This document shows, piece after piece, positions 41,147 to 50,743 of a DNA stretch of 64,000 bases. The notes below the pieces were generated by a model. The model had not been told where the DNA came from, did not search any database, and saw nothing but the letters and a program-made list of their open reading frames with translations. The stretch comes from Bacteroidota bacterium (GTDB lineage: Bacteria > Bacteroidota > Ignavibacteria > Kryptoniales > JAKASW01). Position numbers and translations under genes: made by a program. Every line of letters starts with the position of its first letter. Position 1 is the first letter of the stretch. Location: the NCBI GenBank assembly GCA_021825585.1, contig JAKAGT010000012.1, forward strand, positions 1 to 64,000. Direction: 5' to 3'.

Positions 41147-41929
41147 CTATCTCAGGAAGAAACCGACCGCAAGAAGGAAGACGGCCGACTGAACAACTAA
41201 AGCGACCCCGAGCCTGGTGAAGTTGACCCTGGCACGTTTCGAAAAGAGCCCGGCTGCGACCTGAACCAGCATCGGGACAAACCCCGCAAAAAGAAGAATA
41301 TCCGGGTGATAGCGGATTACCGTCAGTATAACCGCCGCCGTCAGCAGAATGTGGTAAATGACGGCCATGTTCCTCGCCTCTGCCGCCGATCCAGCCCACA
41401 CACCCTTTGTCCGGAGGAGCTCAATTCTCATCTTGACGTAGAAAACGCTGCTGCCGAAGAAAAGAAAGTTGAGCAGATACAATGCAAGGGCCTTCGCGTC
41501 CAGCACATGCGTAATGGAGTAATATGCCGCGGGGCCCGACAAAGTGAGTGCCGCGACGATGGTCAGTTCGTTGAAAAATGTCCGCTGCTCCCTCGTAAGA
41601 TACGTCCGGACGCTGAAGAGAAAGAGGCCGAACTCCATGATGCCGAACAACAGGAGCCATGGAAGACCAAAGCATACGAGCAGTCCGGCGCCGAGAAGAA
41701 TTGCAGGCAGTGAGATCAAGGCAACGGACCACTTTTCGCCCTCCTGCCACTTCCAGTTCCTCTTCGCAATCGTGACTATTGGGTGATGAACTATGTACAG
41801 CAGCGCGAAGCAGATGAACAGGATGAAGAAGCTCGCCGAGAAGTGCGTGACAAGGGCAGCCGATAGCATCGGCACGATCCACATCGCCCACGCACCGTGT
41901 TCTCTTGGTATCAATTCCTTTATTTTCAT
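41147..41929 (-). CDS. YwiC-like membrane protein
   Basis: From the ATG at 41929 (overlapping region of the hemerythrin stop) the 260-residue product starts MKIKELIPREHGAWAMWIVP. PREHGAWAM and YIVHHPI are the YwiC-like (DUF) family signature. About eight transmembrane helices. In Bacillus the ywiC gene lies with nitrate-respiration genes; here it ends an operon with an Rrf2 regulator, an iron-sulfur membrane protein and a hemerythrin. Function unknown; it is a likely integral-membrane partner of that redox unit. Confidence 0.8.
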   Translation of the reverse strand: MKIKELIPREHGAWAMWIVPMLSAALVTHFSASFFILFICFALLYIVHHPIVTIAKRNWKWQEGEKWSVALISLPAILLGAGLLVCFGLPWLLLFGIMEFGLFLFSVRTYLTREQRTFFNELTIVAALTLSGPAAYYSITHVLDAKALALYLLNFLFFGSSVFYVKMRIELLRTKGVWAGSAAEARNMAVIYHILLTAAVILTVIRYHPDILLFAGFVPMLVQVAAGLFSKRARVNFTRLGVALVVQSAVFLLAVGFFLR

Positions 41930-41930
41930 A

Positions 41931-42395
41931 TCAGGCAACCGACCTCGTGGCGAATTTTATCCTTAGTATGTCAACCTGAGCGGGAGACAGGAATTCTTGA
42001 GCTTTGACAAATACTTTGGTTTCTTCCCGGCTGAAATGAGCCGACAACTCTCTCTTTAGCATCTCGATCCGCTGCAGCAACTGCTTCTGATCCTTCAACT
42101 GGAGAAGGACCGGAAGCGAATCCGAAATTTTGAAGATCTCTCTGTGTTCCACACGAAGCTCGGCAAGGAGAGGATTTCCGATTTCATAGACTAATGGAAA
42201 GAGGAAGCGCTCTTCAGTTTCCTGGTGCAATTCCATGAATCTGACCGCAAAATCGACTTTTCTGTCCACCTGCAGCAGGTTTCCGCCGGACGGCCGGGAG
42301 AGAACCTCAATCAATTCATCTAACCGCGCCAGCAGACTCTTGTGTTCCCATAACAGCCTTTCTATCGGCTGTACGGGCGGAAGATCAGAAGGCAT
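41931..42395 (-). CDS. Hemerythrin-like HHE domain protein
   Basis: The 154-residue four-helix bundle has likely di-iron ligands His17 (WEHKSLL), His57 and Glu61 (LHQETEERFLF), His83 (VEHREIF) and His116/Glu120 (HFSREETKVF). Such HHE proteins bind O2 or NO or repair iron-sulfur clusters (YtfE/RIC relatives). It overlaps the NapH-like gene by 11 bases upstream and YwiC downstream, so translation is coupled. With an Rrf2 regulator at the head this points to NO or oxidative stress. Confidence 0.85.
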   Translation of the reverse strand: MPSDLPPVQPIERLLWEHKSLLARLDELIEVLSRPSGGNLLQVDRKVDFAVRFMELHQETEERFLFPLVYEIGNPLLAELRVEHREIFKISDSLPVLLQLKDQKQLLQRIEMLKRELSAHFSREETKVFVKAQEFLSPAQVDILRIKFATRSVA

Positions 42396-43485
42396 GACTT
42401 ATCGCACCTATGTTCTTAAAGAAGCTGAGATACTCGACACCGCTTATCGAGTTCTGCCAGAGGCCGGCCAGGACGGCGACTCCGACTATTCCAAAATATA
42501 CCGCGAGGAGCAGTAGAGCGTATTGCCGCTGGGACAGCCCTTTCGATTTCGACCCGACCGAGAATTTGAGCGTGTCTTTGACAGGGCAAGCCTCCACGCA
42601 GGAGTAACAGGCGGTGCACTCCGCAGAGTTCACCGCATCAAGTTTGTCTACCGGCAGCATTGACGGACACGCGTCAGCGCACTTCCCGCAATCGATGCAG
42701 GTCTGCTCCATGCGATGGATCTTCAATGGGCTGACCAGGCTCGTAATTCCGAGGAGAGCTCCGTACGGACAGGCATACCGGCACCAGAAATTTTTATAGA
42801 AGATCGAAAGGAGAATTAGTACTCCGATAACCACCAGAGAGAAGGTGGAAATCTGAGCGAAGAACAGGTAGAGTTTGATGTCCGCGACTTTGTTGTATCC
42901 GGAGTGAATGAATCCATCCAGCTCCATTGCCGATAATGAGGAAACGCTGATCACGAAGAAAGCCATCAACAGATACTTGAGCGACCTCAGGGGAATGTCG
43001 ATCCAACCGGGAAGCTCGAAGTTCCTCCTGAAAATCTTCGCCCCGAATTCGTGGAGTGATTCGGAGATGTAGCCTATCGGACAGATCCAGCTGCAAAACC
43101 CCTTCTTCATGAAAGTCGAAATCAGCAGCACGGCGGTGAAGATGAAGAAGCCGGACGGATGTATGTGGTTCACGATTCCGGTAAGCAGAAAATATCTGAA
43201 GCTGATCATCGCGCTGATCGGTAGAAAGCCTTCGACGCCGGGCGGTCGTTGAACGACCGGGACGATTCCCCTCTCCAGACCGTTTACGAACAGGTAGAAA
43301 TCGATCCCGATCCACAGGGTTATGAGAAGAAACAAGAGCTGCACATAATTTCGCACATCTGAACGTCCCTCTCTCAGATATGATTTGTCCGTCAGCTTTC
43401 TGATTCTCCTGCCGTCTCTCAACTCCACTACCCTCACCGGAGAAGGATCGGGGATTTCGGATGTTTTTGTCCTGTATATACCCAT
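42385..43485 (-). CDS. NapH-like 4Fe-4S membrane protein
   Basis: The 366-residue protein has about six transmembrane helices, two cytoplasmic CxxxCP motifs (CSWICPIG and CRYACPYG) typical of the NapH/NosR/CcoG group, and a ferredoxin-like pair of 4Fe-4S sites (CIDCGKCADACP and CTACYSCVEACP). It should pass electrons between the quinone pool and a redox partner. No periplasmic nitrate or N2O reductase is beside it, so it may serve the hemerythrin or another acceptor. It starts 6 bases after the Rrf2 gene. Confidence 0.82.
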   Translation of the reverse strand: MGIYRTKTSEIPDPSPVRVVELRDGRRIRKLTDKSYLREGRSDVRNYVQLLFLLITLWIGIDFYLFVNGLERGIVPVVQRPPGVEGFLPISAMISFRYFLLTGIVNHIHPSGFFIFTAVLLISTFMKKGFCSWICPIGYISESLHEFGAKIFRRNFELPGWIDIPLRSLKYLLMAFFVISVSSLSAMELDGFIHSGYNKVADIKLYLFFAQISTFSLVVIGVLILLSIFYKNFWCRYACPYGALLGITSLVSPLKIHRMEQTCIDCGKCADACPSMLPVDKLDAVNSAECTACYSCVEACPVKDTLKFSVGSKSKGLSQRQYALLLLAVYFGIVGVAVLAGLWQNSISGVEYLSFFKNIGAISHAF

Positions 43486-43490
43486 AAGAA

Positions 43491-43940
43491 TTAGCCCAGC
43501 TTTAGTTTTGTCCGAAGTTGTTTACTATCGGTAATCTCCTTCGAAATGTCCGCAATCGTCTTGTTGGCAAGCATTTGGAAGACGCGATCACGGAGCCCGC
43601 CCCATTCCTGGTGCATGGGACACGGGGTCTTCGTCGAGCATTCAGGAAAGCCTAACACGCACGAGGTGAGGAAGTCCGTTCCATCGATAGCGTCGACCAC
43701 ATGAAACAGCGCTATTTCCGAGGGGTCCTTCGCAAGCTTGAAACCTCCCCGAGGCCCCTTGAGCGAAGACAGTATCCTGTCTTGTACCAGAAGCTGCAAC
43801 GTCTTGCCCAGAAAAGGCATCGGAATGTCGAGGCGTTCACTGATCTCGTTTATATTGGTGAATTTCCCCGGCTCCTGCGCCGATATGTAAAGCATCGCCT
43901 GAAGGGCGTATTCACACTGCCTGCTGAATATTAGAGACAT
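43491..43940 (-). CDS. Rrf2-family transcription regulator
   Basis: The 149-residue protein has the Rrf2 winged helix (FSRQCEYALQAMLYISAQEP, ISERLDIPMPFLGKTLQLL, GPRGGFKLAKDPSEI) and three Cys in the cluster loop, CVLGFPECSTKTPCPMH. That Cys pattern fits an iron-sulfur sensor of the NsrR/IscR kind, which responds to NO or cluster status. It heads the operon, and an inverted repeat overlaps its promoter, so it is probably self-regulated. Confidence 0.9.
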   Translation of the reverse strand: MSLIFSRQCEYALQAMLYISAQEPGKFTNINEISERLDIPMPFLGKTLQLLVQDRILSSLKGPRGGFKLAKDPSEIALFHVVDAIDGTDFLTSCVLGFPECSTKTPCPMHQEWGGLRDRVFQMLANKTIADISKEITDSKQLRTKLKLG

Positions 43941-43944
43941 ATAT

Positions 43945-43960
43945 CAGACATTTCTATCTG
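43945..43960. promoter_or_regulatory. Candidate Rrf2 operator
   Basis: An inverted repeat CAGA-N8-TCTG with ATAT on both sides (about 43941-43965) lies between the -10 box and the start codon of the Rrf2 gene. Placement beside the -10 would allow autorepression. The half-site is not that of a published consensus I can name with certainty. Confidence 0.5.
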
Positions 43961-43961
43961 A

Positions 43962-43990
43962 ATATTAACACGAGTTAGTTCTTCAATCAA
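43962..43990 (-). promoter_or_regulatory. Promoter of the Rrf2 operon
   Basis: On the minus strand TTGATT (43990-43985) and TAATAT (43967-43962) are 17 bases apart. It overlaps the CAGA-N8-TCTG inverted repeat. Confidence 0.55.
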
Positions 43991-44153: not shown

Positions 44154-44813
44154 GTGTTAAAGTTGGAACAACACGAAAAACAGGAAAAACGGGAAATGCT
44201 GCTCGATGAAGCAACCGTAGCTAAGCCGTTAGGCGTCGGTCAAACCGCGCATATTTGCCAAGTCACCACACGAACTATAAACAACTGGATCAAGTCAGGC
44301 AAGCTAAAAGCTTACGCAACACCCGGGGGGCATTTTAAGATTTGGCCTTCTGATCTTAAAAAATTCCTGAAAGCGCACAGCATGGACATCAATTTTGACT
44401 TCAAAGGAGAACATCGAAGAAAGATCCTTGTAATTGATGACGATGAGTCTTATGCAGAGTTGGTCAGGGAAGTGCTTCTTGACAAGCTGGAAAACTGTGA
44501 AGTTACGATAACGCACGATGGATATGAAGCTTTGATCCTACTTGGTGAGCTCCAACCCGAACTAATCGTCCTGGACCTGATGATGCCGGGTATAGACGGC
44601 TTCAAGGTCCTTGATCTTATAGCAAGTCGCAAGGCCAACTATCCGCTCAAGGTGCTTGTCCTTTCGGGAAACCTGACCGCCTCGGCTATCGACCGGCTGA
44701 GGCGTTCGCGCGCGGACCAATGGCTGGCAAAACCAATTTCCACTGCTGAGCTTGTACACTCAGTGCTGAACCTCCTTGCCGGCGAAGAGCTCGGAGGCAT
44801 GGGCATCTCTTGA
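44154..44813 (+). CDS. HTH (excisionase-type) - receiver fusion regulator
   Basis: The 219-residue protein has an N-terminal MerR/excisionase-like helix-turn-helix (about 25-75: VTTRTINNWIKSGKLKAYAT then PGGHFKIWPSDLKKFL) fused to a receiver domain (about 88-205: ILVIDDDESYAEL, phospho-acceptor Asp in LIVLDLMMPGIDG, Ser in LVLSGN, Lys in WLAKPIS). The order is DNA binding first, receiver second. The stop overlaps the TTG of the hybrid kinase (TTGA), so they are coupled and probably partners. The GTG start has a poor ribosome site; an ATG at residue 15 is possible. Confidence 0.82.
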   Translation: MLKLEQHEKQEKREMLLDEATVAKPLGVGQTAHICQVTTRTINNWIKSGKLKAYATPGGHFKIWPSDLKKFLKAHSMDINFDFKGEHRRKILVIDDDESYAELVREVLLDKLENCEVTITHDGYEALILLGELQPELIVLDLMMPGIDGFKVLDLIASRKANYPLKVLVLSGNLTASAIDRLRRSRADQWLAKPISTAELVHSVLNLLAGEELGGMGIS

Positions 44814-47887: not shown

Positions 47888-48013
47888 TTTAGAAACTGGT
47901 TTAGGTCTTAAAGTAAGATAGCTGCTGTCGGAGCTGTGGGCGCGAGGGACGGTTCTGATATTCACGACAGTGCCGAAAGCAGCTGAAATTTCAATATATA
48001 GGGAGGAGTGTCA

Positions 48014-50743
48014 ATGGGCTATACAGATACGTTCACCTCTGAGGACATAAAGGCGCAGTCAAAGTGGGGCGGCCTGTCGGTGCGGCGTCATTTCACAAAA
48101 AAAGGGATCCATCCATTCGATGAGATCAACTGGGAACAGCGAACCGCGTCCATTTCGAACGAGAAGGGCGAGGTAATATTCCAGCAGGACAACGTTGAAA
48201 TCCCCGATTTCTGGAGCATGACGGCGACAAACGTGGTAGTTTCGAAGTATTTTCACGGTCAGCTCGATACTCCGGAAAGAGAATTCAGCGTGAAACAGCT
48301 CGTAGACCGTGTAGCGCGTACCTTCACGAAATGGGGCATCAAGGGTGGTTATTTCGCTTCCGACGAGGATGCGTCGGCATTTTTCGACGAACTGACGTAC
48401 CTGCTCGTGAACCAGTATGTATCCTTCAATAGTCCGGTCTGGTTCAACGTCGGCATCGAGGATAAGCCGCAATGCTCTGCCTGTTTCATCAACTCGGTCA
48501 GGGACACCATGGAGTCGATTCTCGAGCTTGCCAAGACCGAAGGAATGCTTTTTAAATGGGGAAGCGGGACAGGGACCAATTTCTCGACTTTAAGATCCTC
48601 GAAGGAGAAGCTCTCAGGTGGTGGTACAGCTTCTGGTCCAGTCTCATTCCTGCGCGGATTCGATTCGTTCGCAGGAGTGATCAAATCGGGTGGAAAAACG
48701 CGCCGCGCCGCAAAGATGGTGATCCTCAACGCAGAACACCCCGATATACTCGACTTCATCAGAAGTAAATCAGAGGAAGAAAAGAAGGCCTGGGCATTGA
48801 TTGACGCGGGCTACGATCCGGGCTTCAATGTCCCAGGTGGAGCTTACGACTCTGTTCAATTCCAGAACGCGAATCACAGTGTGCGCGCAACGGACGAATT
48901 TATGCGCGCGGTCCTGGAAGACAAGGAATGGAGAACAAAGAACGTTAAAGACGGAAAGCCTGCCGAGAATTTCCGGGCGAGAGACCTGATGCATCAGATC
49001 GCGGACGCCGCCTGGGTCAGCGGTGATCCCGGCATGCAGTTCCACTCCACGATTAACGGGTGGCACACCTGCCCCGGTACGGCGCCTATCAATGCCTCGA
49101 ACCCTTGCAGCGAATACATGTTCCTCGACGACAGTGCATGCAACCTGGCCTCACTGAACCTGATGAAATACAGGAGAGAGGACGGCTCTTTCGACGTCGA
49201 TGCATTCCTCCATTCCGTGGACATTACGATCACGGCACAGGAAATCATAGTCGGCACCGCCGGTTATCCCACCAAATCGATCGAGAAGAACAGCCACGCG
49301 TTTCGTCCGCTCGGAATCGGATATGCCAATCTAGGCGCTCTCCTGATGTCGCTCGGCGTTCCCTACGACAGCAACGAAGGCAGGGCTTATGCCGGGACTA
49401 TCACAGCGTTGATGACGGGAGAAGGATACAAGCAGAGCGCACTCATTGCGAAGACGATCGGACCCTTTGAAGGATATCAGGTAAACAGGGATCCGATGCT
49501 CGGCGTAATACGCAAGCACAGAGCTCACGTGGACAAGATAGACGTCGATGTTCTCCCCGGCAACCTCGTCGAATCGGCCCGTAAGGTGTGGGACGATGCG
49601 CTTACCATCGGCAAAGAGTACGGCTACCGGAACTCCCAGATATCCGTTCTCGCTCCGACCGGCACGATAGGTTTCATGATGGACTGCGACACGACAGGAG
49701 TCGAACCCGACATCGCCCTCGTAAAGTACAAGAAGCTCGTCGGCGGCGGTTACATGAAGATCGTCAACAACACGGTGCCGCTTGCCCTGAAGACGCTCGG
49801 CTATTCCGAGGAACAAGTTGAGGAAATCATCAAGTACGTCGACATAAACGGCACGATTGAAGGCGCTCCTCATCTGAGGGAGAAAGACCTGAGCGTTTTC
49901 GATTGCGCATTCAAGCCGGTCAACGGAAGCCGCTCGATCCACTACATGGGCCATATCAAGATGATGGCGGCGGTTCAGCCCTTCCTTTCCGGCGCAATAT
50001 CGAAGACCGTCAACCTTCCCACTGAAGCAACTGTCGAAGATATCGAGCAGGCCTACATCGAAGCATGGAAACTGGGTCTGAAGGCGATCGCCGTTTACCG
50101 CGACGGATCCAAGAGGACGCAGCCTCTGAGCACAAAGAAGGACGAGGGAAAGAAAGCCGAGCCCACGGCTCCAGGTGCTTACGCCGTAAGGCACAGGCTC
50201 CCCGACGAGCGGAGTGCCGTGACTCACAAGTTCAGCATCGGCGGTCATGAGGGTTACATAACAGTCGGGCTCTACGAAGACGGCACCCCCGGTGAGATAT
50301 TCATAACGATGTCGAAGGAAGGATCCACGATAAGCGGACTCATGGACGGCTTCGCTACCGCGATCTCGCTGGCGCTGCAGTACGGAGTCCCGCTTAAAGT
50401 CCTCGTCGATAAGTTCAGTCATATGCGTTTTGAGCCCTCAGGGTTCACGAACAGCAAGGATGTACCCATTGCCAAGTCCGTGCTCGATTACATCTTCCGC
50501 TGGATGGGCTTGAAGTTCCTTCGGCGGGAAGAGCAGCCGGCGTCCGTAGTGGTCGATTCCATTGCTGCGGAACCGAAAGACGAAGAGAAGAAGGAATTTA
50601 ACATCTCGCTTGAACAGGCAGAAAAGAAGGTATTTGAGGAACAGGCGGATGCGCCTCCCTGCCATGAATGCGGCTCGATCATGATTAGGAGCGGCTCGTG
50701 CTACAAATGCCTGAATTGCGGTTCGACGAGCGGTTGTTCCTGA
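48014..50743 (+). CDS. nrdJ: B12-dependent ribonucleotide reductase (class II)
   Basis: Makes deoxyribonucleotides with adenosylcobalamin. From the ATG at 48014 (GGGAGGA seven bases before; a GTG lies two codons earlier) the protein is 909 residues. Seen: SFNSPVWFNVG, CSACFINSV, KWGSGTGTNFSTLRS, GGKTRRAAKMV, the active-site loop NPCSEYMFLDDSACNLASLNL, APTGTIGFMMDCDTTGVEPD, and a C-terminal CHECG...CYKCLNCG zinc/redox tail typical of long NrdJ. As no other reductase is in the window, its importance elsewhere is unknown. A strong terminator follows. Confidence 0.95.
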   Translation: MGYTDTFTSEDIKAQSKWGGLSVRRHFTKKGIHPFDEINWEQRTASISNEKGEVIFQQDNVEIPDFWSMTATNVVVSKYFHGQLDTPEREFSVKQLVDRVARTFTKWGIKGGYFASDEDASAFFDELTYLLVNQYVSFNSPVWFNVGIEDKPQCSACFINSVRDTMESILELAKTEGMLFKWGSGTGTNFSTLRSSKEKLSGGGTASGPVSFLRGFDSFAGVIKSGGKTRRAAKMVILNAEHPDILDFIRSKSEEEKKAWALIDAGYDPGFNVPGGAYDSVQFQNANHSVRATDEFMRAVLEDKEWRTKNVKDGKPAENFRARDLMHQIADAAWVSGDPGMQFHSTINGWHTCPGTAPINASNPCSEYMFLDDSACNLASLNLMKYRREDGSFDVDAFLHSVDITITAQEIIVGTAGYPTKSIEKNSHAFRPLGIGYANLGALLMSLGVPYDSNEGRAYAGTITALMTGEGYKQSALIAKTIGPFEGYQVNRDPMLGVIRKHRAHVDKIDVDVLPGNLVESARKVWDDALTIGKEYGYRNSQISVLAPTGTIGFMMDCDTTGVEPDIALVKYKKLVGGGYMKIVNNTVPLALKTLGYSEEQVEEIIKYVDINGTIEGAPHLREKDLSVFDCAFKPVNGSRSIHYMGHIKMMAAVQPFLSGAISKTVNLPTEATVEDIEQAYIEAWKLGLKAIAVYRDGSKRTQPLSTKKDEGKKAEPTAPGAYAVRHRLPDERSAVTHKFSIGGHEGYITVGLYEDGTPGEIFITMSKEGSTISGLMDGFATAISLALQYGVPLKVLVDKFSHMRFEPSGFTNSKDVPIAKSVLDYIFRWMGLKFLRREEQPASVVVDSIAAEPKDEEKKEFNISLEQAEKKVFEEQADAPPCHECGSIMIRSGSCYKCLNCGSTSGCS

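Follow-up and report, generated by a model that had tools for sequence, protein, structure and literature searches.

Gene content of the rrf2 operon

The window, a stretch of 64,000 nucleotides from a genome of the Ca. Kryptoniota type (contig JAKAGT010000012.1), carries a tight four-gene operon on its minus strand, which runs from 43940 to 41147 and spans 2.8 kb. It encodes an Rrf2-family regulator, a NapH/NosR-like protein, a hemerythrin-like (HHE) protein and YwiC. An earlier note, made from the sequence alone, had described these as four overlapping or nearly touching genes, and both the ORF spacing and the domain matches bear this out: rrf2 and the NapH-like gene are separated by 5 bp, the NapH-like and HHE genes overlap by 11 bp, and HHE is followed by ywiC after 1 bp. 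The features of the locus, in the direction of transcription, are as follows.

43985..43990, minus strand: -35 element TTGATT, 17-bp spacer, aligning with TTGACA/TTGACT of relatives
43962..43967, minus strand: -10 element TAATAT, which overlaps the edge of the operator and aligns with TATATT/TAAATT of relatives
43941..43964, minus strand: operator palindrome TATTCAGATAGAAATGTCTGATAT, 24 bp, abutting the rrf2 start codon and kept in 13 same-genus genomes
43491..43940, minus strand: Rrf2-family regulator, 149 aa (PF02082, 105 bits, 4e-30), with C94-x6-C101-x5-C107-x2-H110 and E10
43454..43477, minus strand: second operator-like palindrome, where the NapH-like gene begins; a weaker match and possible internal site
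42385..43485, minus strand: NapH/NosR-like membrane iron-sulfur protein, 366 aa, with two Fer4_5 stretches and a 2[4Fe-4S] domain
41931..42395, minus strand: HHE (hemerythrin-like) protein, 154 aa (PF01814, 50 bits, 4e-13)
41147..41929, minus strand: YwiC, a membrane protein of about nine helices (PF14256, 72 bits, 7e-20), ATG start

For YwiC, a TTG upstream (41938) is also possible as a start. Upstream, the operon is flanked by divergent genes at 44154 (a helix-turn-helix/response-regulator protein) and 44810 (a histidine kinase); downstream, a convergent gene encodes a GH35 beta-galactosidase. Farther away in the window, 48008-50743 encodes a ribonucleotide reductase that appears to be of the B12-dependent type.

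Judged by its sequence, the NapH-like protein resembles NapH in general architecture only. It reaches 86.9 bits against the NCBIfam NapH model (cut-off 234) and 86.2 bits against TIGR02163 (cut-off 213), and a sequence search of the PDB returned ferredoxin-domain matches only. The same search with the HHE protein found nothing. An assignment of the latter to RIC/YtfE/ScdA was rejected, as it scores 18.2 bits against TIGR03652 (cut-off 204.7) and has the hemerythrin domain only, without ScdA_N.

Operator and promoter

The earlier note had reported a promoter with 17-bp spacing overlapped by CAGA-N8-TCTG. This arrangement is confirmed, and the repeat (43945-43960) proved to be the core of the larger 24-bp palindrome, for which the conserved site has the consensus ATWTCRGA-N8-TCYGAWAT. 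Since all 13 same-genus genomes have the palindrome, it is not due to chance. The promoter layout is likewise kept: in 12 of the 12 aligned genomes, the operator lies at the -10 element of a TTGACA/TTGACT-17/18-TATATT/TAAATT promoter. The window's own version, TTGATT-17-TAATAT, falls below the threshold of the promoter scanner when scored alone. The second palindrome recurs in the same position in each of the 12 same-genus operons for which this stretch is available (the window and L013-L023), and it may represent either an internal regulatory site or a coding constraint.

Conservation of the operon

YwiC is present in 12 of the 13 same-genus genomes, each time behind rrf2. The thirteenth (G009) shows the operator and the beginning of rrf2 at a contig end, so that ywiC is cut off rather than shown to be absent. 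The NapH-like gene is intact in 10 of 12 same-genus operons and decayed in two (G011 and G012), and HHE is absent or replaced in four. The constant core of the operon in this genus therefore consists of the operator, rrf2 and ywiC. The decay of the NapH-like gene occurred by deletion (L015 8385-8780, L021 8250-8620), and rrf2, HHE and ywiC are still intact there.

Apart from these decayed copies, the NapH-like gene is conserved beside Rrf2 and YwiC in relatives. Two loci from other families of the same class (L052 and L069) have the order Rrf2-YwiC-NapH-like followed by NrfHA, HHE being optional in this operon type, and a third (L054) has Rrf2-DUF438/HHE-DUF2249-YwiC-NapH-like-HHE followed by NirK; the NrfA and NirK identities passed curated models or domain searches. 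YwiC thus co-occurs with Rrf2 and HHE in other genomes, the association on which the earlier note had staked its reading beforehand. Its guess of an NO module also gains from these relatives, in which YwiC, NapH-like, Rrf2 and HHE genes share operons with NrfHA or NirK.

A different arrangement is found in the Kryptonium-type sister family (L043, L047, L051, L059, L060), where YwiC stands behind a methyltransferase, without Rrf2 or NapH-like genes. The methyltransferase-YwiC pair also occurs in Gemmatimonadota (L208).

The Rrf2 regulator

C94, C101, C107, H110 and E10 of the regulator are invariant in the aligned set, in keeping with the three cysteines of the Rrf2 protein described in the earlier note. 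Three cysteines and an N-terminal carboxylate, the ligand pattern of NsrR, are present, with Glu where ScNsrR has Asp. The cluster motif reads C-x6-C-x5-C-x2-H, compared with C-x5-C-x5-C-x2-H in IscR, and IscR proteins are the closest solved structures by sequence. The Cys3-His set corresponds to the ligands of IscR, and E10 occupies the position of the NsrR Asp or the RsrR Glu. Compared with Rrf2 Fe-S regulators of the IscR/RsrR kind, the protein differs in the x6-x5 spacing of its cysteines, the additional invariant Glu10 and its predicted NOx targets. Against the NCBIfam equivalog models, the protein scores 42.3 bits for NsrR (cut-off 182) and 68.3 bits for IscR (cut-off 207.6). As its predicted regulon is NsrR-like but both curated cut-offs fail, the regulator is termed NsrR-like by regulon and is not filed as NsrR.

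The same site at other genes

The site was searched genome-wide in same-genus genomes, including that of the window (G000). With two mismatches allowed, the initial search mixed in many single sites, and only positionally conserved sites were kept. Nitrogen-oxide enzymes were also searched, and their matches coincide with the site matches.

The gene for the quinol NO reductase (qNOR) carries the site immediately upstream in all six same-genus genomes that have the gene, the window's genome included (TTTTCGGACGAAATCATCGGAAAT, G000:C37:19662-19685). Its identity rests on PF22085 (the NorB cytochrome-c-like domain, 5e-63) and PF00115 (COX1, 9e-61) in one chain (L149 4702-7017). Counted from the sequences, the distance from the centre of a TTGAC-N4-GTCAA box to the site downstream of it is 34 bp in six of six same-genus genomes. 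This FNR/HcpR-type box equals wyTTGACnnnnGTCAArw, the motif of an HcpR group (PMC1274295). A matrix that was trained on the rrf2 operators alone, and that disregards the spacer, gives the qNOR sites scores of 14.9-22.9. In same-genus DNA chosen without regard to the site (about 280 kb), no position reached 14.9 except in the rrf2 operon region. In further genomes of the class, strong sites stand immediately upstream of qNOR at no fewer than three loci (L118, L120, L131). Site matches at L156, L157 and L158 were dropped, being inside or beside unrelated genes. The same-genus qNOR loci (L149-L154) also hold DUF2249 and hemerythrin genes, some with a CRP/FNR regulator, and form an NO gene island that lies outside the window.

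Upstream of nirK, encoding the copper nitrite reductase, the site is found for six of the seven same-genus genes with complete upstream DNA: those of G001 (C320:2958, 88 bp upstream), G002, G005, G008, G011 and G012. The operator matrix and site scan found none upstream of nirK in G004. Four genomes have tandem sites 91-99 bp apart before nirK (L192, L194, L196, L197), and this distance of about nine helical turns suggests looping or cooperative binding.

A hemerythrin of 288 aa (HHE-288) has the site upstream in the window's genome (G000:C18:39092-39115), and its promoter in G000 and G009 shows a TTGACT-17-TATATT layout with the site. No strong site was found upstream of HHE-288 in five genomes, and its membership in the regulon is therefore claimed for G000 and G009 only. 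A relative of HHE-288 sits just downstream of nirK in G002. In G000:C18 (L189) and G009:C18 (L191), nirK has apparently been lost from between the promoter/operator and the hemerythrin gene, which the site would now drive.

The earlier note had asked whether the site recurs in the genome; it does so at qNOR and HHE-288, and in sister genomes at nirK. Its statement that the set lacks a known reductase is correct for the operon itself but not for the regulon, since qNOR stands elsewhere under the same operator and the module is thus not without a reductase. The nitrogen-oxide enzyme search found no nirK match in the window's genome and no true NrfA or NosZ in the same-genus genomes.

YwiC: fold and neighbourhoods

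YwiC scores 71.9 bits against PF14256 (gathering cut-off 25) and is thereby a YwiC-like protein. A single-sequence fold was poor (pLDDT 53) and was superseded by an AlphaFold2 model from a 66-sequence alignment (pLDDT 94.9, pTM 0.91). Its best solved Foldseek matches are the UbiA prenyltransferases 6m31 and 7bpu (TM 0.60 and 0.56, probability 1.00 and 0.99, but E only 0.11-0.18). The likeness extends over the whole length of the model at a TM of about 0.6; the identity, however, is about 12%, and YwiC is without NDxxDxxxD-type motifs. No Asp-rich Mg/diphosphate motif is conserved among the 66 sequences. The invariant residues are E10, H11, G12 and W14 (E10-H11-G12-x-W14) and G241, and P50, R/K56, Y164, K166 and Y192-H193 are conserved. 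We read YwiC tentatively as an accessory protein with a UbiA-like fold that might bind quinone, heme or an isoprenoid.

Named YwiC loci from many phyla were surveyed (80 in total, 72 outside the Kryptoniota set). Of these 72, 36 have one or more NOx-linked genes within 4.5 kb of YwiC. By gene, the NOx-linked share is 50/328 near YwiC (<3 kb) and 8/303 far from it (>5 kb; odds 6.6, p = 1e-8), in a test that is not fully blind, as the query families were picked after some neighbourhoods had been seen, the far genes being scored with the same queries. Among 126 near neighbours in the Pfam tally, CRP/FNR occurs nine times, NosD and hemerythrin seven times each and nos_propeller four times; none of them is in the top Pfam list for far genes. 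Genome-level co-occurrence outside the genus is weak (p = 0.015 for YwiC with qNOR or NosZ, p = 0.12 for each alone) and is therefore not used as main evidence.

In other phyla, YwiC is found with NrfHA, with HCP, with narK-fnr in Bacillales, and in nos operons, where it is flanked by a NosB-like gene and nosD. It stands beside qNOR in Acidobacteria and Bacillales, with hemerythrins directly upstream in Acidobacteria. The Bacillus narK-fnr-ywiC locus is a known parallel, found here in alkaliphilic Bacillales (L258, L270, L273, L275, L276): YwiC stands there beside NarK and a CRP/FNR regulator, but the locus has no Rrf2, HHE or NapH-like gene. Clade II nos clusters (NosB, NosD/F/Y/L) offer a further parallel, as Ignavibacteria-type nos operons hold YwiC in the position between the NosB-like gene and nosD. 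NosB has 4-6 TM helices (PMC11388526), whereas YwiC has about nine, and the two are distinct proteins. No mention of YwiC was found in papers on nos clusters, and literature searches for it yielded nothing relevant.

A probable nitric oxide-responsive Rrf2 regulon

Taken together, the gene order, the conserved operator, the shared sites, the neighbourhoods and the predicted fold make it likely that the operon, controlled by its own product, stands at the centre of an NsrR-like Rrf2 regulon that responds to NO and has a separate operator and a separate set of accessory genes. An iron-sulfur repressor probably controls both the operon and NO and nitrite reductase genes through one shared site. 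The earlier note had suggested a small module for sensing and detoxifying NO or oxygen; its NO variant gains support from the recurrence of this operator at qNOR, at nirK and at another HHE gene.

The following course of events can be proposed. As long as its Fe-S cluster is intact, the Rrf2 dimer would bind ATWTCRGA-N8-TCYGAWAT over the -10 element and the start site. In the window's genome it would thereby repress its own operon together with the qNOR and HHE-288 genes; in sister species, nirK would be among its targets. Damage to the cluster by NO, or other nitrosative damage, would release the dimer from the DNA. The derepressed qNOR would then reduce NO to N2O, while HHE proteins may bind NO or supply iron for repair and the NapH/NosR-like protein may carry electrons at the membrane. 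YwiC, with its UbiA-like fold lacking the prenyltransferase aspartates, would act as a membrane accessory factor of nitrogen-oxide respiration.

This proposal has much in common with the NsrR regulon (Rodionov 2005, PMC1274295; ScNsrR, PMC4432287): an Rrf2 repressor with three cysteines and an N-terminal carboxylate, an FNR box upstream of the Rrf2 site, an overlapping promoter and a hemerythrin-type gene (there dnrN). Control of nirK and NO reductase, as in Neisseria and Burkholderia, is predicted here from the sites. The operator, however, is not the NsrR consensus gATGyAT-N5-ATrCATc (PMC1274295), the regulator remains far below the NsrR model cut-off, and the core operon has NapH-like and YwiC genes in place of hmp or hcp. 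Further points against the proposal are the nirK of G004 with no site, the five genomes lacking a strong site at HHE-288, the weak genome-level co-occurrence and the two decayed NapH-like genes.

Alternatively, the regulator could sense Fe-S status or redox/O2 in the manner of IscR or RsrR, the NOx genes being part of an anaerobic or redox response. The Cys3-His ligands, the invariant Glu and the nearness to IscR structures fit this idea, as does the FNR-type box before qNOR. It is nevertheless unlikely: the predicted targets are producers and consumers of NO (nirK, qNOR) together with hemerythrins, and no isc or suf gene was among the stronger sites examined. Less likely by far is a di-iron unit for oxygen handling or iron repair with a secondary link to NO genes. 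O2 binding and iron donation are among the abilities of HHE proteins (review PMC9268430), but HHE is missing from several same-genus operons in which rrf2, the operator and YwiC are constant.

For YwiC, the structural matches could also indicate an active enzyme of the UbiA superfamily, catalysing prenyl transfer to quinone, heme or lipid or a related reaction and supplying nitrogen-oxide reductases with a cofactor; of the viral matches, too, the best sensible one is a UbiA protein. The Foldseek E of only 0.11 and an invariant set (E10, H11, G12, W14, G241) in place of the Asp-rich motif make this rather doubtful. It is somewhat less probable still that YwiC travels with anaerobic-metabolism islands as a passenger and takes no part in NOx chemistry. 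Roughly one in two of the 72 loci outside the Kryptoniota lacks a NOx-linked gene within 4.5 kb, co-occurrence across genomes is weak and a methyltransferase adjoins YwiC in Ca. Kryptonium; on the other hand, the near-versus-far enrichment, the embedding in nos operons and the retention of YwiC in every same-genus operon, even as HHE and NapH-like genes get lost, speak for a functional link. It is quite possible that YwiC is a hitherto unassigned UbiA-fold membrane component, not a prenyltransferase, common to NO, nitrite and N2O reduction across phyla, and that in Ignavibacteria/Kryptoniota it belongs to a separate Rrf2 regulon for NO that has an operator code of its own.

As the window's genome has qNOR but no NirK, true NrfA or NosZ, the organism's most likely use of the regulon is to clear NO that others produce or that arises by chemical reactions, with N2O as the end product. 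No Rrf2 NO regulon of this lineage is described in the literature searched, and for this large uncultured lineage the operator and its predicted targets provide a testable regulon of NO handling. If the reading is true, the operator could serve as a marker to predict NO-responsive genes in these metagenome-derived genomes. In addition, the analysis connects YwiC, a widespread family of uncharacterised proteins, with nitrogen-oxide respiration in many phyla, and deleting its gene in a tractable Bacillus could then reveal an accessory step that is still missing from the picture of NO or N2O reduction.
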